Source of the DNA: Coriobacteriales bacterium
Lineage (GTDB): Bacteria; Actinomycetota; Coriobacteriia; Coriobacteriales; UMGS124
Assembly: GCA_017515595.1 (NCBI GenBank)
Contig: JAFWFL010000046.1
Location: 1-44,171 of the forward strand
Length of the DNA stretch: 44,171 bases
Direction of reading: 5' to 3'
Position 1 is the stretch's first letter, and the number at the start of each line of letters is the position of its first letter. The position numbers and the translations under genes were made by a program. Under the pieces are notes generated by a model. It was given only the letters and a program-made list of their open reading frames with translations, did no database searches and was not told where the DNA came from. Shown here piece after piece: positions 28,069-33,847 of this stretch.

Positions 28069-28207
28069 CAAATAATGTCCATTATGCTCTGAACGAGACT
28101 TCCGCGGGGTGATACATTTAGTTCAGAGCGTTTTTATAAGGCTAGAGCGATGAACTCAATGTATCACCCCGCGGAAGTCTCGTTCAGAGCATAATGGACA
28201 TTATTTG
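28069..28207. repeat. Long hairpin element 2 (perfect 50-bp arms, conserved 39-nt core)
   Basis: Arm 28069-28118 is the exact reverse complement of 28158-28207 (50 of 50). The 39-nt centre (28119-28157) is the reverse complement of the element 1 centre with 3 differences. The arms do not match those of element 1 except for the innermost ACATT/AATGT and a nearby GGGG. The 3' arm also carries GTTCAGAGC (28182-28190), a nine-base copy of part of the core (28121-28129). It starts three bases after recN and ends 87 bases before tRNA-Pro. Confidence 0.95.
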
Positions 28208-28491: not shown

Positions 28492-28568
28492 GCCTCCATA
28501 GCTCAGGTGGATAGAGCAGAGGACTTCTAATCCTAAGGTCGCAGGTTCGAGTCCTGCTGGGGGCGCCA
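28492..28568 (+). tRNA. tRNA-Arg (TCT), integration site of the satellite
   Basis: Acceptor GCCTCCA/TGGGGGC, D arm GCTC..GAGC, anticodon loop CTTCTAA (TCT), T arm GCAGGTTCGAGTCCTGC, encoded CCA. Its 3' half (28523-28568) is the left att repeat, so integration leaves the tRNA intact. Confidence 0.96.
28523..28568 (+). repeat. attL: 46-bp direct repeat in the 3' half of tRNA-Arg
   Basis: Identical over 46 bases to 33802-33847 and running from the anticodon loop to the CCA end. The flanking bases differ on both sides, so the repeat is sharply bounded. A tRNA 3' end as attB is typical for tyrosine integrases. Confidence 0.95.
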
Positions 28569-28614
28569 TTATTTAACAGGTATAATGAACATCAATATGT
28601 AAATGATAATTATA

Positions 28615-28644
28615 GGGCACAAGACGGGGCACAAAAAGGGCACA
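28615..28644 (+). repeat. Three GGGCACA repeats near attL (probable integrase arm sites)
   Basis: GGGCACA at 28615-28621, 28627-28633 and 28638-28644, in the same orientation, with starts spaced 12 and 11 bases. The right end (33656-33685) has the same three sites with the same spacing. Such short repeats at both ends are expected for arm-type binding sites of a heterobivalent tyrosine integrase. Confidence 0.75.
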
Positions 28645-28709
28645 TGTTTTGAATGCCTCTTTATTAAAATGCCTGTTGGTGTGTTGCTGATTAAATTTTA
28701 AATGACAAA

Positions 28710-28736
28710 CAAAAAAGGCGGCTCTTTGGCCGCCTT
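28710..28736 (-). terminator. Terminator of the satellite operon
   Basis: On the minus strand AAGGCGGC pairs with GCCGCCTT (28715-28722 with 28729-28736), followed by TTTTTTGTTTG. It lies 23 bases beyond the last satellite gene. Confidence 0.9.
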
Positions 28737-28758
28737 ATTCATTACTCAAAAGCAACAA

Positions 28759-28995
28759 TCAACTATCCTCAGGGACATGATATATGCCCGTCTCTAGGAT
28801 TCCACGCGCAAGCTCAGAGGCGTATTCCATAACCGCCGGGCTTGCGTCTCCTAGTTCGTTCCAAACATCAGCACATACTTTTTTCATGTTCCCGGGAATA
28901 GCGGGATCCATGCCCTTCGCTACGGTTGCTAGCTCAACGATCCGACCATAATGCAGAAGGTAGAGCGCCTCGACTTCGGTAAATGTTTTGCTCAT
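28759..28995 (-). CDS. Small satellite protein of unknown function
   Basis: 78 residues, predicted mostly helical, mildly acidic, no membrane segment (MSKTFTEVEALYLLHYGR...). ATG 28995 has a perfect GGAGGTGA. It starts 11 bases after the terminase small subunit gene and is the last gene before the terminator. I do not recognise it; its place next to terS suggests a packaging-linked or helper-interaction role, which is only inference. Confidence 0.75.
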   Translation of the reverse strand: MSKTFTEVEALYLLHYGRIVELATVAKGMDPAIPGNMKKVCADVWNELGDASPAVMEYASELARGILETGIYHVPEDS

Positions 28996-29006
28996 CGTCT
29001 CACCTC

Positions 29007-29480
29007 CTATACTTCGATATGAAGAATGCCCTGGTCATCGGTGTTTGACTCTCTCAAAGTATCATCTGTAATAACGCTCTTAATCGTGCCCAAAATTTCC
29101 TCGGCACGTGCGAGACTCGCCGCGTTTGGATCCTCTGCGACAATACCAAGTAAGGCATTCAGGCGATCCAAGGAACCAAAAAAGACACCCGCTGCACCTC
29201 TTGAGGTCAAATTACCATTGTTAACCGCGGCATATGCTGCATCATTGACACGTTGAAGGCGTTCTATGGCTACTGTACGGTTCCATGTGGCGGTCTCTGT
29301 GGCCTTGGCTTGCGCTGTTTGAATGATTGGGGAAATGCTAGGGTTTTTTAACAACCGTTGCGCCTCAACGGCTATTGTCTCCGGGTTTTTACAAGCGTAT
29401 CCAGCTTTTTTATATGCTTGTGAAGGCGGCATACCCTCAATAATATTCTGTGCAAACCGTAATTGTTTTATAGTAGCCAT
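29007..29480 (-). CDS. terS: Phage terminase small subunit
   Basis: 157 residues from ATG 29480 (AAGGGGG five bases upstream; a GTG two codons earlier lies within that site). Residues 3-50 match the Terminase_2 helix-turn-helix pattern: KQLRFAQNIIEGMPPSQAYKKAGY, then an AQRLLKNPSISPII helix. The central part (60-125) should form the oligomerisation core and the tail is acidic. TerS recognises pac or cos DNA; with no TerL here, it must work with a helper phage's large subunit, as in PICIs. It could also be a remnant of a decayed prophage, but the intact operon speaks against that. Confidence 0.85.
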   Translation of the reverse strand: MATIKQLRFAQNIIEGMPPSQAYKKAGYACKNPETIAVEAQRLLKNPSISPIIQTAQAKATETATWNRTVAIERLQRVNDAAYAAVNNGNLTSRGAAGVFFGSLDRLNALLGIVAEDPNAASLARAEEILGTIKSVITDDTLRESNTDDQGILHIEV

Positions 29481-29538
29481 ATACACCCCCTTAAATCATT
29501 TTTAAACCATCGCATTGTTTTCATAGGTAAATACACCT

Positions 29539-29583
29539 GTGCAAGCCTTAAAACGCTTTATACGGCATTCTGTGGGCTTGCAC
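29539..29583 (-). promoter_or_regulatory. Hairpin in the 128-base gap before terS
   Basis: GTGCAAGCC (29539-29547) pairs with GGCTTGCAC (29575-29583), 27-base loop. No T tract follows on either strand. It is the only sizeable gap inside the operon. It may be an attenuator, a regulatory leader or a packaging-related site. Confidence 0.45.
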
Positions 29584-29608
29584 TGTCTACCAAAATAAAA
29601 CAAGCCTG

Positions 29609-30280
29609 TTAGTCTACGGCTTCACAAAATGCTGCAAGTTGCTCCGTGGACATTCCAAACGCTTCGCGCTTCTCGGTAATCTGTGGTCGGCGTGGTAGGT
29701 CGTCAACATCATATTTATTGCCATACCTTTTGGCTTGACGCTCAGCCCATAAACGAGCTGCAGGTTGTGCGGAATCGTCGAAGAGTTCACATGCTTGCGC
29801 GTAGAGAAAGCGAATTTTTTCGTCTGTGGCTGCAATAGATACATTGGTGCTCTGCTTTGGCTCTTGATGATAAAAAATATGATTAATTTTTGCAAAATCT
29901 CGAAGTACACCGCGAGCGGCATCAGTTTGTAAGCTATTCGCGAGCCTTGTAAGCTCATCGCTTGTGATGCTCTTGGGATCTCGCATTCGCAACATTTGCA
30001 GCATGCTGGTTTCGTCGGCGGTTGGTGCTGGTTCTGGTCGTCTCGAATTAACCTCGCGCATTCTATCGACAATCTGCTTCAAAGCTTCTTTGTCGCGTGC
30101 TGCAAGGCTTTTTACCTGTTTCTGGTATTCCCTTTTTATTGCGTCCAAATCCTCATCATAGCCACGAGAACCTTTGAAGCGTTCGAGTTTTTGCTTCTTT
30201 ATCGAGTAATCCGAATCAAGTGCAGCGTGCTTTGTTTGATGATCAGAAATTAATCGATAAAAGTCGTCTGTGTTCGTCAT
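29609..30280 (-). CDS. Satellite coiled-coil protein, unknown
   Basis: 223 residues, soluble. Residues 10-75 are a basic/acidic helical stretch likely to form a coiled coil (KKQKLERFKGSR..., AIKREYQKQVKSLAARDKEALKQI). The C-terminal part (about 150-223) is helical with DEKIRFLYAQACELFDD and an Arg/Lys-rich segment (ARLWAERQAKRYGNKY). ATG 30280 has AGAGGAGA at good distance. The gene's place just before terS and its coiled coil recall phage scaffold or capsid-morphogenesis proteins used by PICIs to redirect capsid size, but I see no motif that proves this. Confidence 0.75.
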   Translation of the reverse strand: MTNTDDFYRLISDHQTKHAALDSDYSIKKQKLERFKGSRGYDEDLDAIKREYQKQVKSLAARDKEALKQIVDRMREVNSRRPEPAPTADETSMLQMLRMRDPKSITSDELTRLANSLQTDAARGVLRDFAKINHIFYHQEPKQSTNVSIAATDEKIRFLYAQACELFDDSAQPAARLWAERQAKRYGNKYDVDDLPRRPQITEKREAFGMSTEQLAAFCEAVD

Positions 30281-30316
30281 TTTATTATTCTCCTCTCATT
30301 TTCTTGTTTGAGATAG

Positions 30317-30347
30317 AGATCCGGGAGGCTCAAAACTTCCCGGATCT
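30317..30347 (-). other. Intergenic hairpin in the satellite operon
   Basis: AGATCCGGGAG (30317-30327) pairs with TTCCCGGATCT (30337-30347) as an 11-bp stem with one G-U pair and a 9-base loop. On the minus strand it is followed by CTATCTC, not a T tract, so it is more likely a transcript-stability or processing hairpin than a terminator. Confidence 0.5.
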
Positions 30348-30355
30348 TGTGCTGT

Positions 30356-30529
30356 TTAGGGTGCCCAAATACCGAAGTCAAGTTCCGAGTATTCTTCGGC
30401 TTCTTGCGCTGCGATTTCGTCGAGTATTTCATCAAGTGATGCATCATCGTCATATTCAATAGAAGAAAACTCCTCGATGCTATCGCTGTATTCTTGGTTG
30501 TTGTTATTGTTCATTGAGCGCATCATCAT
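30356..30529 (-). CDS. Small acidic satellite protein
   Basis: 57 residues if translated from ATG 30529 (AGGAG 11 bases upstream; ATGs at 30526, 30523 and 30514 are alternatives). It overlaps the end of the replication gene in another frame. The product is very acidic (EEFSSIEYDDDASLDEI...EEYSELDFG) with a poly-Asn start. Acidic small proteins of phages often act as DNA mimics or anti-host inhibitors, but nothing here proves it. Start choice is uncertain. Confidence 0.5.
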   Translation of the reverse strand: MMMRSMNNNNNQEYSDSIEEFSSIEYDDDASLDEILDEIAAQEAEEYSELDFGIWAP

Positions 30530-31193
30530 TTTGTTTGCATCTCCTAAAGTAACCTTGCCAATTTTTAATTGGTGCACCATCTTTATCGCTCCAATTAGCC
30601 CAATAGCAATCATTCCAAACTTGTGCAGCTTGTTCTTTATCCATACCAATTTTTGAAGCAAACTCTAATGCTTCTACGAGTGTAGGCTCTTGGAAAGTAT
30701 CTAAATCACCTGATATAGTAGTAACTACGTTACTATTGACTGATAAACATGAATCTGATTTTGATTGATTTAAAGACTGTTCATCGGTCTTTTTACGACT
30801 TTTTCCAGACTTTTTACAGTCTGGGTTCAGACTGTCAAGCTGTTCTTTAGTCATAACATAAACACATGAAGTATGTTTCTTAAGGTATGCAGCTATCTCT
30901 GAAAGGTGATTACCAGCATTATAATTCTTATAGTCTCGCTTATTGTGATGCCAATAGTGTGCAATCAAATAACCATGCTCAAGCTCAAGAAGTAACCCGG
31001 CATCAACCAACCTTTTTAGCTGCTCTGTGGGGTCGAGTTCCAAACCTGCAATAACGCGGCGTGCATTTGCTACAAACCCATCAACATCGCATTCAAAGCA
31101 TAGTTGGTAGTAAATGGCCTGTGTATCCCACGGTAACGCTGTAAAACTGTCGCTACCACATACGGAACTTGCAAAAGACGCTTTTGCTCTCAT
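30504..31193 (-). CDS. Phage-type replication initiator/replisome organiser
   Basis: 229 residues from ATG 31193, which overlaps the previous stop as ATGA and follows GGAG eight bases upstream. Residues 1-85 follow the phage replisome-organiser winged-helix pattern: SFTALPWDTQAIYYQLCFECDVDGFVANARRVIAG..., L..L.DAGLLLELEHGYLIAHYWHHN. Residues about 130-165 are a Ser/Lys-rich linker. The C-terminus (about 180-229) resembles a DnaD-like end (FASKIG..., WSDKDGAPIKNWQGYFRR). In PICIs such proteins start replication of the excised island. The helicase loader role is from family knowledge. Confidence 0.75.
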   Translation of the reverse strand: MRAKASFASSVCGSDSFTALPWDTQAIYYQLCFECDVDGFVANARRVIAGLELDPTEQLKRLVDAGLLLELEHGYLIAHYWHHNKRDYKNYNAGNHLSEIAAYLKKHTSCVYVMTKEQLDSLNPDCKKSGKSRKKTDEQSLNQSKSDSCLSVNSNVVTTISGDLDTFQEPTLVEALEFASKIGMDKEQAAQVWNDCYWANWSDKDGAPIKNWQGYFRRCKQNDDALNEQ

Positions 31194-31537
31194 GGCTTTA
31201 GCTCCGCCCTGGGGAGGTCGTCGAGTATGCTTTTCTTTGTCACAAGTAACTGGGCATATTCCGGGTGCTCCGATATTAAAAACCGAGCAAAAGCGGCGCA
31301 ACTTTCGTTTGACACTCTAAATACTGAGCCATCATTTGTGCAAAAGTCTTTCGACCTAACGACCTCAACATAGCGTTGAACACTCAGCTGTTGATTTTTG
31401 CTATAATCCGTTTGAGCAAAATCTTTAATGAACCGCCATGCCCTAGGATTGTTTTTCACCCATGCGCGCGCCTGCTTTAGCATCTGGTAGGCGCGCTCTT
31501 GTTTTTCAAGTCTATTTGGAGTTAAAGCAATAGCCAT
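31190..31537 (-). CDS. Satellite protein of unknown function, first gene of rep operon
   Basis: 115 residues, basic and helical (MAIALTPNRLEKQERAYQMLKQARAWVKNNPRAW...). ATG 31537 has GGAGGTG eight bases upstream. Its stop overlaps the replication gene start (ATGA), so the two are coupled and it may act in replication. A short basic N-terminal helix and repeated aromatic residues might suit DNA binding, but I do not recognise the family. Confidence 0.7.
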   Translation of the reverse strand: MAIALTPNRLEKQERAYQMLKQARAWVKNNPRAWRFIKDFAQTDYSKNQQLSVQRYVEVVRSKDFCTNDGSVFRVSNESCAAFARFLISEHPEYAQLLVTKKSILDDLPRAELKP

Positions 31538-31586
31538 AACAATAACACCTCCAAAGAGAAGCGCTCCTATGCATAATGTTTGTTAT

Positions 31587-31624
31587 ATACAATGTAATGA
31601 TTTTGAATAATTGTATACAATGTA
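31587..31624 (-). promoter_or_regulatory. Paired operator-like repeats upstream of the rep operon
   Basis: ATACAATGTA occurs at 31587-31596 and 31615-31624, 28 bases apart (close to three helical turns), and the second copy overlaps the perfect palindrome TTGTATACAA (31611-31620). They lie 50-90 bases before the start of the first rep-operon gene. This is the expected place for the main switch of the element. Confidence 0.5.
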
Positions 31625-31721
31625 TATGATACACTGATATGTAATCTGCTCTCATATGCAGACTGTTCAATGAGTGTGTGCTGCAAACTTTGGCGAGGGA
31701 ACAGCAAACACTCATTTTTTT
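31603..31721 (+). ncRNA. Candidate plus-strand small RNA of the satellite
   Basis: On the plus strand TTGAAT (31603-31608), 16 bases, TATGAT (31625-31630) could start a transcript near 31637. A 15-bp hairpin (31669-31683 with 31702-31716, one mismatch) followed by seven Ts (31715-31721) would end it, giving about 85 nt. The T run touches the alpA-like stop. All satellite genes are on the other strand, so this terminator either ends an unannotated small RNA or blocks transcription toward alpA. No reading frame is evident. Confidence 0.35.
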
Positions 31722-31722
31722 A

Positions 31723-31911
31723 TTAAGCATTCTCATAGGCATCTTTCTCCTTTATTCCGAGCTGTTCGCGCAGTTTGGGCATGTTTACACGCCAAACATT
31801 GCCAATCTGCACCGCCGGGATCTTGCCTTGCTCTGCGAGCCTGTAAGCATAACGGTTTGATATGTTGCAAACCTTCGCAGCTTCGGCCATTGTTCCTAAA
31901 ACACTTTGCAT
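31723..31911 (-). CDS. AlpA/excisionase-family helix-turn-helix protein
   Basis: 62 residues forming one winged helix of the MerR/AlpA excisionase type: MAEAAKVCNISNRYAYRLAEQGKIPAVQIGNVWRVN, with the usual GKIPA turn and WR. AAGGAGGC precedes ATG 31911. In PICIs AlpA is the activator of the replication-packaging operon; in other elements this fold is Xis. Its position between the integrase module and the rep operon suits either role. Confidence 0.8.
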   Translation of the reverse strand: MQSVLGTMAEAAKVCNISNRYAYRLAEQGKIPAVQIGNVWRVNMPKLREQLGIKEKDAYENA

Positions 31912-32051
31912 TTATTGCCTCCTTGTTCTTATGGCGTTTGCCCTGTGCTATACGCCGTTACAGTCAGTATTCTATGTATGAAATGTTTTTTTGTGAAGTG
32001 GTTTATAGAAGTTCGTATTTACGACAAAATAAAATAAATTTAAAATAGCAG

Positions 32052-32387
32052 TTAAACAGCTATATTTATAATATCGACAGCTATAAATTGTATTTTTGAG
32101 CGCAAAAAAACATCCCTCTTGTAATTGTTCTCAACACGAACAAAGACGTCGCCCTGGATCTTCGTTATCTCAACAACCCGCCAAAGAATAGTAGGCCATT
32201 GATCACGGCTTTTGGTTTCATTTTCGATTAGAACATAAGATCCGGGGACAACCTCGGTCATCCTTGAGCAAATGAGAACGTCGTTCTCTGTAATGCCCGG
32301 GCTTTGACAGTCGCCTACAACGGTTAAAGCAATGGCATCAGGGTATTTTTTGACTATAGCGGCGGGAACGTCTACAAAATTATTCAT
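32052..32387 (-). CDS. Stand-alone LexA/S24-like peptidase domain, catalytic residues changed
   Basis: 111 residues from ATG 32387; ATGAATAA overlaps the integrase stop by eight bases, so it is coupled to int. The sequence keeps the S24 shape (ALTVVGDCQSPGITENDVLICSR, then VPGSYVLI, ILWRVVEI, NNYKRDVF), where active S24 proteins have GDSM and a Lys in the 'vKR' strand. Here Ser is Cys and Lys is not present, so self-cleavage is doubtful. No DNA-binding domain is fused. It might be a decoy or partner of another repressor. Family assignment is by pattern only. Confidence 0.55.
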   Translation of the reverse strand: MNNFVDVPAAIVKKYPDAIALTVVGDCQSPGITENDVLICSRMTEVVPGSYVLIENETKSRDQWPTILWRVVEITKIQGDVFVRVENNYKRDVFLRSKIQFIAVDIINIAV

Positions 32388-33618
32388 TGCCTGCACGCTT
32401 GAACGGGATAACCTGGGTTTGTTTTTCGTAAACTTCACCAATCTTTGCCGCAGCTGCTTTCTTTGCGTTTGGATCTGGTGATGCGTAAACGTGTAGAGTT
32501 ACGTATTCATTACTATGACCTAACATACTAGCAACGGTTTTAACGTCAATACCGGCTGCTACGGCAACTGTCGCGTATGTATGCCTCAAATCATGGAAAC
32601 GTACTGAGTTATTATGCGTACCATTTACGCCTATAGATTCTGAAATAACTTTCCATGCTTTACTTAAATTATTTGGATTCATATAATGCCAAAGGTCATA
32701 ACTCAATACATAAAATTTTGAATCAAATGGAATTTCAGATTTTGCCGCCTGGGCTTGCATAGCTTGTTTACGACGTTTTAACACCTCAACAAGTTGTGGC
32801 GGAATATCGATTGTACGCCGCCTACTTTCATTCTTTGGACTTTTTATATACATACCGCCTTCTGCTAAACCTATTGATTCACTAACGCGGATCTGAGCGT
32901 TATCTAAATCAACATTCGCCCATGTTAAACCGCAGCATTCAGCGCTATGAAGTCCAGCAAAAAGCGCAAGTGCAATGCCTGTTACTGTGGCGCTTGCTTC
33001 ATGATTAGCGATATACTCGGCAACCTTACGTCTGCTCTCGGCATCAAGAGCGTTTGGTTGTGTGCTTTGACGTTTTGGCGGTTTAACCATATCTGCTACG
33101 TTCTCTTTGAGAACTTTTATATTTTTAGCATGTTTAAGTACCTGTTTTAAAAGTCTGTGACATTTACCAACGGTTGAGCTTGATAGACCACGCTGTATCA
33201 GTGCTGTTTCAAAATCTTGCACCTGTAAAGCAGTGAGTTCTTTTAAGGCGACGTTTGAGAAGAATTCACGTATATATAACGCAGTTGTCCGATAACCTCG
33301 AATTGTGCTGCGCTCAACGGCTTGAATGGCTTCATAATTAGTAATATATTGATCTACAAAATCAGCTACTGAAAGATTAATGGCCGAGTTCTGCTCTTGT
33401 TTCTGTAGTGCTTGCTGCTCTTTCTCGGCATGTTCCCTCTTTACTTCGTCGCTCCACTCATTCATAGCCTTTTTAGCTTCGGTTTGATTCCGGGCATGAA
33501 TGTATTTGCTTACTTGTTTCCACGGCTTTGAATCGTCGTCACGGTATCTCAAAACAGCTTGCCAAGGTTTCCCGTTCTTATCTTCTCTAAGGCGTAAAGT
33601 TGGTGCTAGATACTGCAT
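32380..33618 (-). CDS. int: Tyrosine recombinase integrase
   Basis: 412 residues from ATG 33618, which has GGAGGT seven bases upstream. Order: N-terminal arm-binding domain (1-65, AP2-like start LREDKNGKPWQAVLRY), SAM-like core-binding domain (about 82-175), catalytic domain (about 185-400). Catalytic residues seen: Lys262, H342-D-L-R345-H (HDLRH), His368 in LGH, Tyr378. The first catalytic Arg (family GLR) is His224 in AGLHSAE. It integrates the island into tRNA-Arg. The S24-like gene overlaps its stop. Confidence 0.95.
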   Translation of the reverse strand: MQYLAPTLRLREDKNGKPWQAVLRYRDDDSKPWKQVSKYIHARNQTEAKKAMNEWSDEVKREHAEKEQQALQKQEQNSAINLSVADFVDQYITNYEAIQAVERSTIRGYRTTALYIREFFSNVALKELTALQVQDFETALIQRGLSSSTVGKCHRLLKQVLKHAKNIKVLKENVADMVKPPKRQSTQPNALDAESRRKVAEYIANHEASATVTGIALALFAGLHSAECCGLTWANVDLDNAQIRVSESIGLAEGGMYIKSPKNESRRRTIDIPPQLVEVLKRRKQAMQAQAAKSEIPFDSKFYVLSYDLWHYMNPNNLSKAWKVISESIGVNGTHNNSVRFHDLRHTYATVAVAAGIDVKTVASMLGHSNEYVTLHVYASPDPNAKKAAAAKIGEVYEKQTQVIPFKRAGNE

Positions 33619-33655
33619 ATTGAGAACCTCCGAAATGTAAACAAGCCAAATCATG

Positions 33656-33685
33656 GGGCACATAATAGGGCACACATAGGGCACA
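33656..33685 (+). repeat. Three GGGCACA repeats near attR
   Basis: GGGCACA at 33656-33662, 33668-33674 and 33679-33685, same orientation as the left set and with the same 12/11 spacing. They lie in the int leader between its promoter and start codon, so integrase bound here could limit its own expression. Confidence 0.75.
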
Positions 33686-33701
33686 TGTTCCTTAGTTCAT
33701 A

Positions 33702-33730
33702 ATAATACAGCATATACATGCTCTGCACAA
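33702..33730 (-). promoter_or_regulatory. Probable int promoter with palindromic operator in its spacer
   Basis: Minus strand: TTGTGC (33725-33730), 17-base spacer, TATTAT (33702-33707). The palindrome AGCAT-ATAC-ATGCT (33709-33722) fills the spacer, a common place for repressor binding. Confidence 0.6.
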
Positions 33731-33801
33731 TATACATTAATAACAGGTATAATAATTCATGTTAAGACAACATATACAAATCTGTTTATAAAATACTAAA
33801 C

Positions 33802-33847
33802 ACTTCTAATCCTAAGGTCGCAGGTTCGAGTCCTGCTGGGGGCGCCA
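33802..33847 (+). repeat. attR: 46-bp copy of the tRNA-Arg 3' half
   Basis: Identical to 28523-28568, including CCA. It lacks the 5' half of a tRNA, so it is not a gene. Confidence 0.95.

Follow-up and report, generated by a model that had tools for sequence, protein, structure and literature searches.

A compact island in a tRNA-Arg gene of a Coriobacteriales bacterium resembles TerS-using phage satellites and has relatives at many tRNA sites across the order

Phage-inducible chromosomal islands (PICIs), such as the Staphylococcus aureus pathogenicity islands (SaPIs) and EcCICFT073, have an attachment site, a tyrosine integrase, a small regulator and a replication gene, and some of them carry the small terminase TerS (PMC6092414). 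The phage-inducible chromosomal minimalist islands (PICMI) of the Vibrionaceae have a 6.1-kb prototype with a DUF3987/DUF5906 primase and are always located at fis (PMC10803314). Candidate mycobacterial PICIs are actinobacterial, lie in tRNA genes in some cases and are recognized by a major capsid gene (PMC10654092). Here we describe a 5,279-bp island in a 44,171-nt contig of a Coriobacteriales bacterium (JAFWFL010000046.1, assembly GCA_017515595.1; this whole stretch is called the window). By its gene logic the island appears to be a PICI-like satellite, and we consider it likely that it is a complete, compact satellite that uses TerS; our confidence in its present activity is lower than in that assignment.

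The island is bounded by a 46-bp direct repeat (28523-28568 and 33802-33847) that is 100% identical, and an exact match of 46 nt excludes chance as a serious option. A preliminary description of this DNA, made from the letters alone, had placed an intact att site in tRNA-Arg, which is borne out by this repeat and by the tRNA gene at 28492-28568. The heptamer GGGCACA occurs seven times in the whole 44-kb window, and six of these occurrences form two clusters of three just within the att cores, with equal spacing in both (12 and 11 nt). Since these clusters would flank the core after circularization, like P and P' arms, the attachment site looks complete; by position and spacing, the heptamers are putative integrase arm sites. 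The own integrase and specific attachment site of a PICI are therefore both present, as the 46-bp att, the integrase and the arm-like repeats. All genes from int to orf78 lie on the minus strand. Pfam and PHROG profiles identified the integrase, the AlpA-type regulator, the replisome organizer and TerS, whereas scans of the full list of open reading frames (ORFs) found no large terminase (TerL), portal, capsid or tail gene, as had been proposed for TerL, capsid and tail; apart from the integrase, no ORF is big enough for TerL, portal or tape measure. Neither the ORF list nor the Pfam scan revealed a relaxase or conjugation gene. The proposed terminator was also recovered, as a terminator-like hairpin with a T-run at the operon end, and all the ORFs named there as having no known function exist. 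The features are as follows.

28492-28568, plus strand: tRNA-Arg(TCT), host gene and integration site, which stays intact (ARAGORN)
28523-28568, no strand: att core copy 1, 46-nt perfect direct repeat in the 3' part of tRNA-Arg
28615-28644, no strand: three GGGCACA repeats, putative integrase arm sites, tRNA-side end
28715-28736, minus strand: terminator-like hairpin and T-run, end of operon
28759-28995, minus strand: orf78, an ORF with no assigned function (Pfam/PHROG family matches no better than chance)
29007-29486, minus strand: TerS, small terminase of the Terminase_2 family (PF03592, phrog_51)
29609-30280, minus strand: orf223, helical protein of a family of satellite-like islands, candidate packaging or capsid modulator
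30316-30348, no strand: hairpin with a 13-bp stem in the leader of orf223
30356-30529, minus strand: orf57, small acidic ORF (ORF list)
30504-31193, minus strand: Rep, DnaD-like replisome organizer or helicase loader (phrog_8489 E 7e-11; tblastn to phage replisome organizers)
31190-31537, minus strand: orf115, marker protein of the island family, next to AlpA
31538-31722, no strand: alpA-orf115 gap of 185 bp with two TATACAATGTA repeats (sequence)
31723-31911, minus strand: AlpA/excisionase-like HTH_17 protein (PF12728 E 7e-10; phrog_66 excisionase/regulator)
32052-32387, minus strand: S24-like domain protein without a helix-turn-helix (HTH) (PF00717 E 2e-4, under the Pfam cut-off)
32380-33684, minus strand: tyrosine integrase, probable start ATG 33618 (PF00589 E 5.6e-19; phrog_1 E 9e-61)
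33656-33685, no strand: three GGGCACA repeats, putative integrase arm sites, far end
33802-33847, no strand: att core copy 2, 46-nt perfect direct repeat

The predicted TerS (PF03592 E 1.5e-9, 39.1 bits against a cut-off of 26.1; phrog_51 E 3.5e-15) would supply the packaging gene of a PICI; for replication the island has a DnaD-like Rep, and no primase was seen in it. The best start of Rep, ATG 31193, overlaps the stop of orf115, and the start codon of the S24-like gene overlaps the int stop by 8 nt; the S24-like protein has GDCQ in place of the GDSM usual in S24 peptidases. The alpA-orf115 gap is a possible operator or origin, and the orf223 leader hairpin could be a regulatory or packaging signal. 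Just outside the island, between recN and tRNA-Pro, lies a 57-bp inverted repeat (28069-28125 and 28151-28207; 98% complementary, 25-nt loop), whose core was not found in the rest of the fetched loci.

Like PICIs, the island combines a specific att site, a tyrosine integrase, a small regulator (AlpA-like here; AlpA in Gram-negative PICIs), a replication gene and TerS, which only some PICIs carry, with a lack of TerL, capsid and tail genes. Formal assignment to the PICIs depends on helper-phage induction and on high-frequency transfer in phage-like particles. The int-alpA-rep-terS logic that had been read from the letters holds here, as does the smaller than usual size (5.3 kb; median 6.0 kb across the 23 islands described below). 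The island differs from PICIs in its 5.3-kb length, its DnaD-like Rep, the shared orientation of int, AlpA and all other genes and the lack of a Stl- or Rpr-type repressor; it also has orf115 and orf223, which belong to no named family. It is like PICMI in its similar size, few genes and set of int, alpA and a replication gene, and the gene overlapping the int stop is iolg in PICMI and the S24-like gene here. It differs from PICMI in its tRNA-Arg site, where PICMI uses fis, in its DnaD-like Rep, where PICMI has the primase, and in its TerS, and the TerS-less primase islands L075, L083, L088 and L105 among its relatives are closer to PICMI than it is. The records of Streptococcus satellite phages (Javan series) likewise contain int, a regulator, replication-type genes and a small TerS-related protein, but they span 8-18 kb with other regulators, and their TerS likeness is to sister islands and not to the TerS family of the window. 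The candidate mycobacterial PICIs share with this island an actinobacterial host and, in some of them, tRNA sites but not the lack of a major capsid gene; having no capsid gene set of its own, the island is not a capsid-forming PICI (cfPICI) or other capsid-encoding satellite.

When 397 genomes of the order were searched with the proteins, Rep and orf223 had distant matches, two of them within one island. A profile of orf115 (A1) matched 63 of these 397 genomes, from 41 of 123 genera, and matched twice in the genome of the window; among 276 genomes of the phylum, just two from outside the order matched, both weakly. We fetched regions around 40 further places and defined a bounded island as an exact tRNA-end repeat of 17-87 nt enclosing orf115. 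This yielded 23 bounded islands, comprising that of the window and 22 others (one of them in tRNA-Lys of the same genome, others in Olsenella and Atopobium), with lengths of 4,243-11,653 bp, a median of 5,953 bp and all but one below 7.8 kb. Every one of the 23 carries int, AlpA and orf115, no virion genes were seen in them, and they occupy tRNA-Arg, Lys, Val, Leu, Pro, Phe and Thr genes with 11 anticodons. A search for the same gene set at other tRNA sites had been suggested; int, AlpA and orf115 recur in all 22 further att-bounded islands, which follow the same int/AlpA-orf115/rep/TerS logic. Gram-positive PICIs have a Stl/Rpr repressor with int and the lytic module divergent, and Gram-negative ones AlpA. 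Gene arrangement in the present family varies: int is divergent in several relatives, and L020 and L025 have an XRE-like protein (judged by eye), whereas in the window's island an AlpA-like protein is present, int is co-directional and an XRE repressor is absent. The tRNA-Lys island lies on contig 88 (L009 ~16671 to L010 ~3880; 47-bp att, 7,160 bp) and has an integrase 64% identical to that of the window, AlpA and an orf115 homologue, but no TerS. A scan of named genomes with the orf115 alignment found five loci, in Olsenella sp. UW_MP_ATO3_1, Atopobium sp. oral taxon 199 F0494, Olsenella sp. Marseille-P4559, RUG025 and RUG12252. The named genomes of the window's order thus comprise Olsenella, Atopobium and a rumen Coriobacteriaceae metagenome-assembled genome, and Olsenella falls in Coriobacteriales, which bears out the host order read from the letters; the TerS scan of named genomes gave no match. 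Full-text literature searches returned no description of satellites in Coriobacteriales, with the taxonomic coverage of the de Sousa et al. 2023 census unchecked, which accords with the earlier remark that satellites are little described in this bacterial class; the island family is apparently undescribed so far.

These relatives bear on whether the island is instead a deletion remnant, that is, a temperate phage in tRNA-Arg that lost its structural genes and left int, AlpA, rep and terS behind. Every recognized island gene has phage relatives. Nevertheless, same-build islands bounded by exact att repeats, with virion genes seen in none of them, recur at 11 kinds of tRNA site in many genera, and near-identical copies across species and genera point to mobility in the compact form. 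The islands L076 and L077, in tRNA-Phe of two species of one genus, are 95.6% identical over 5.1 kb, whereas nothing in L076 corresponds to the left flank of L077 once the att region is passed. Between L074, from Atopobium sp. oral taxon 199, and L079, from a different genus, 3.6 kb match at 92% and a further 1.2 kb at 84%; their flanks gave no match over the reporting limit. Conversely, tRNA-Leu flanks that are 78-86% alike carry different islands in L025, L088 and L105. Because near-identical pairs have unrelated flanks and like flanks carry different islands, islands of this build appear to be inserted and transferred as units, and the comparisons indicate that relatives of the window's island move horizontally between hosts. 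Two other genomes of the host family could be compared. In one, the contig stops a short way past tRNA-Arg and the tRNA cluster is inverted with respect to tig; in the other, it stops after tRNA-Leu. Neither revealed an empty site for the window's island or, at tRNA-Arg, a complete prophage sharing its int, orf115 and terS. The preliminary description had named full prophages in close relatives as the mark of a remnant; the bounded relatives proved to be compact att-bounded islands of 4.2-11.7 kb, and orf223 was not found among 50,697 phage records (two members as queries). We therefore regard a remnant as very improbable.

A TerS or TerS-like gene was found in 12 of the 23 islands; two of the types are unrelated families, and the assignment of a third is less certain. 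The PF03592/phrog_51-like type is present in the window, L023, L076 and L077 and the phrog_2538/7344-like type in L022, L027, L070, L074 and L079, with no similarity between the two in profile comparison; the DUF5681/phrog_2412-like proteins of L025, L035 and L093 are only suggested to act as TerS. A TerS or TerS-like gene accompanies the DnaD-like Rep in all five bounded islands that have this Rep (the window, L022, L023, L025 and L027), and none is present in L075, L083, L088 and L105, which have long primase-type proteins. This division into small islands with TerS and larger ones with a primase was noticed post hoc and is descriptive rather than a test. In the late region of islands without a recognized TerS we observed an HTH and zinc-ribbon protein (L069 11183-11830, L072, L080 and L092), a possible further TerS type.

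The distribution of TerS is relevant to a second alternative, in which the island is an autonomous integrative element, spread by competence, conjugation or general transduction, with TerS and orf223 serving other ends such as interference with incoming phages. Eight islands of 6.5-11.7 kb carry AlpA and orf115 without a recognized TerS (six of the eight have primase-type proteins by profile), so that an own TerS is not universal in the family, and interference of satellite proteins with helper TerS is established in SaPIs. However, unrelated TerS families sit among the late genes of sister islands, which speaks for selection on packaging as such, and the island has no relaxase or conjugation gene; we judge an autonomous element to be distinctly unlikely. 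A packaging role for orf115 was rejected, since this gene stays beside AlpA in TerS-less islands. The earlier suggestion that the unknown genes act in helper or capsid control can be made narrower, in that orf223 accompanies the packaging gene and orf115 accompanies AlpA.

By profile, eight islands among the 23 have an orf223 homologue: those of the window, L025, L035, L069, L072, L076, L077 and L093. Six of them also have a TerS or TerS-like gene, and L069 and L072 have the HTH and zinc-ribbon protein in the same region; the window group and the L069/L072 subgroup match with 97% probability in profile comparison. This co-occurrence with the TerS region, together with the lack of a phage-record match, suggests a late, satellite-specific role and makes orf223 the best candidate for a gene that controls packaging or the capsid. 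Single-sequence AlphaFold models were of low quality (predicted local distance difference test scores, pLDDT, of 61.9 and 57.9); that of orf223 is confident only in an N-terminal helical region with long helices, and fold searches with this poor model gave nothing with E < 0.1. A distant relative (87-92% probability, profile comparison) occurs in TerL-bearing tRNA-Gly islands of 12.6-12.7 kb in another Coriobacteriales genus (L108 1762-14438 and L109 5227-17956). These contain an integrase, a VapE-like primase, an HNH-like protein and TerL (Terminase_6N) with no capsid gene recognized, and by gene content represent a satellite type carrying its own TerL. Helical proteins beside TerS in L070/L074/L079, L023, L027 and three human-fecal phage records were also considered as orf223 homologues, which profile comparison did not support; they are positional analogues at best, and the orf223 profile matches of the L070/L074/L079 type stem from rows placed in that alignment.

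Taking these results together, we lean, with only slight preference, towards a distinct order-wide family of minimal satellites (4-8 kb) that is defined by an AlpA-orf115 core and has interchangeable replication modules and TerS genes of unrelated families, and in which the satellite-specific helical orf223 would be the sole other conserved late gene and a novel type of modulator of the helper terminase or capsid.

Matches in phage records extend this comparison to other satellites. Among phage records, the TerS of L079 matched small unannotated proteins in 26 that are all titled Streptococcus satellite phage; its other matches were three human-fecal phage records from Mexico, 6.3-11.5 kb long, and a single virus of 30.7 kb. 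The Streptococcus satellite protein is 36% identical to the TerS of Atopobium/Olsenella islands and is annotated as hypothetical in most of the 26 records (e.g. MK448334.1 5823-6185); it may be an unrecognized TerS of these satellites. Two unannotated fecal records look like satellites by gene content: in the 6.3-kb MT837714.1 (L153) AlpA is followed by a replication-type protein, then TerS, then a helical protein, and MT836267.1 (L154) has an integrase, AlpA, a primase, TerS, a TerL-like protein and a 124-bp terminal repeat, which suggests a circle. In MT837364.1 (L152; 1921-6736), TerS and a helical protein are followed by tail-type and tape-measure-like genes with no TerL or capsid gene, and this may be a satellite beside helper tail genes or an assembly joint. 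Viromes of Mexican children have been prepared from DNase-treated virus-like particles (PMC8361208), although an origin of the fecal records in that study could not be confirmed.

If the window's island is a satellite, a helper phage would trigger the AlpA-type protein, which could act as an activator and/or as directionality factor for integrase bound at the GGGCACA arms. The integrase would then recombine the two att cores to give a 5.28-kb circle, leaving tRNA-Arg intact, and the DnaD-like Rep would load a cellular or helper helicase at the island origin to produce concatemers. TerS would recognize a pac or cos site of the island and recruit helper TerL, so that island DNA enters helper-made capsids and reaches new hosts, and orf223 would probably assist a late step by modifying the helper terminase or helper capsid. 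Induction, replication, packaging, the role of orf223 and the identity of the helper are all inferred in this scheme.

Several observations weigh against a TerS-using satellite. The preliminary description had looked to a host prophage with a compatible TerL; no such helper was found, as no PF03354, PF03237 or PF04466 TerL, the three families tried, was matched in the assembly of the host, which has 134 contigs and is 97.7% complete. The helper may have been lost, or it may be a prophage absent from this genome or a virulent phage. No virion-derived DNA of the island came to light: TerS, Rep, integrase, orf223 and the orf115 alignment gave no match in IMG/VR, an absence that is weak because this insensitive method needs exact peptide words. 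Neither a pac/cos site nor an origin has been demonstrated for the island, and it has no XRE-type repressor. A third alternative is a stranded, inactive island whose gene set is intact but whose helper is gone, leaving it immobile in this lineage, a state that overlaps with the satellite reading since the origin would be compatible. The failure to find a resident prophage TerL in the three Pfam families fits this, as does the frameshift within the VapE/primase-like gene of the tRNA-Lys sister island in the same genome. In the window's island, however, every recognized ORF is intact, and so are the two att cores and the two arm-like clusters, and we consider stranding unlikely, while giving it some weight.

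Coriobacteriales is an order common in the mouth and gut, and the family adds to known satellites a compact TerS-bearing type near the lower size limit. The orf115 gene beside AlpA offers a usable profile for finding further islands, and orf223 is named as a candidate for packaging or capsid control. Finally, TerS type is exchanged among otherwise similar islands, and TerS swapping as an adaptation to helpers is therefore testable.

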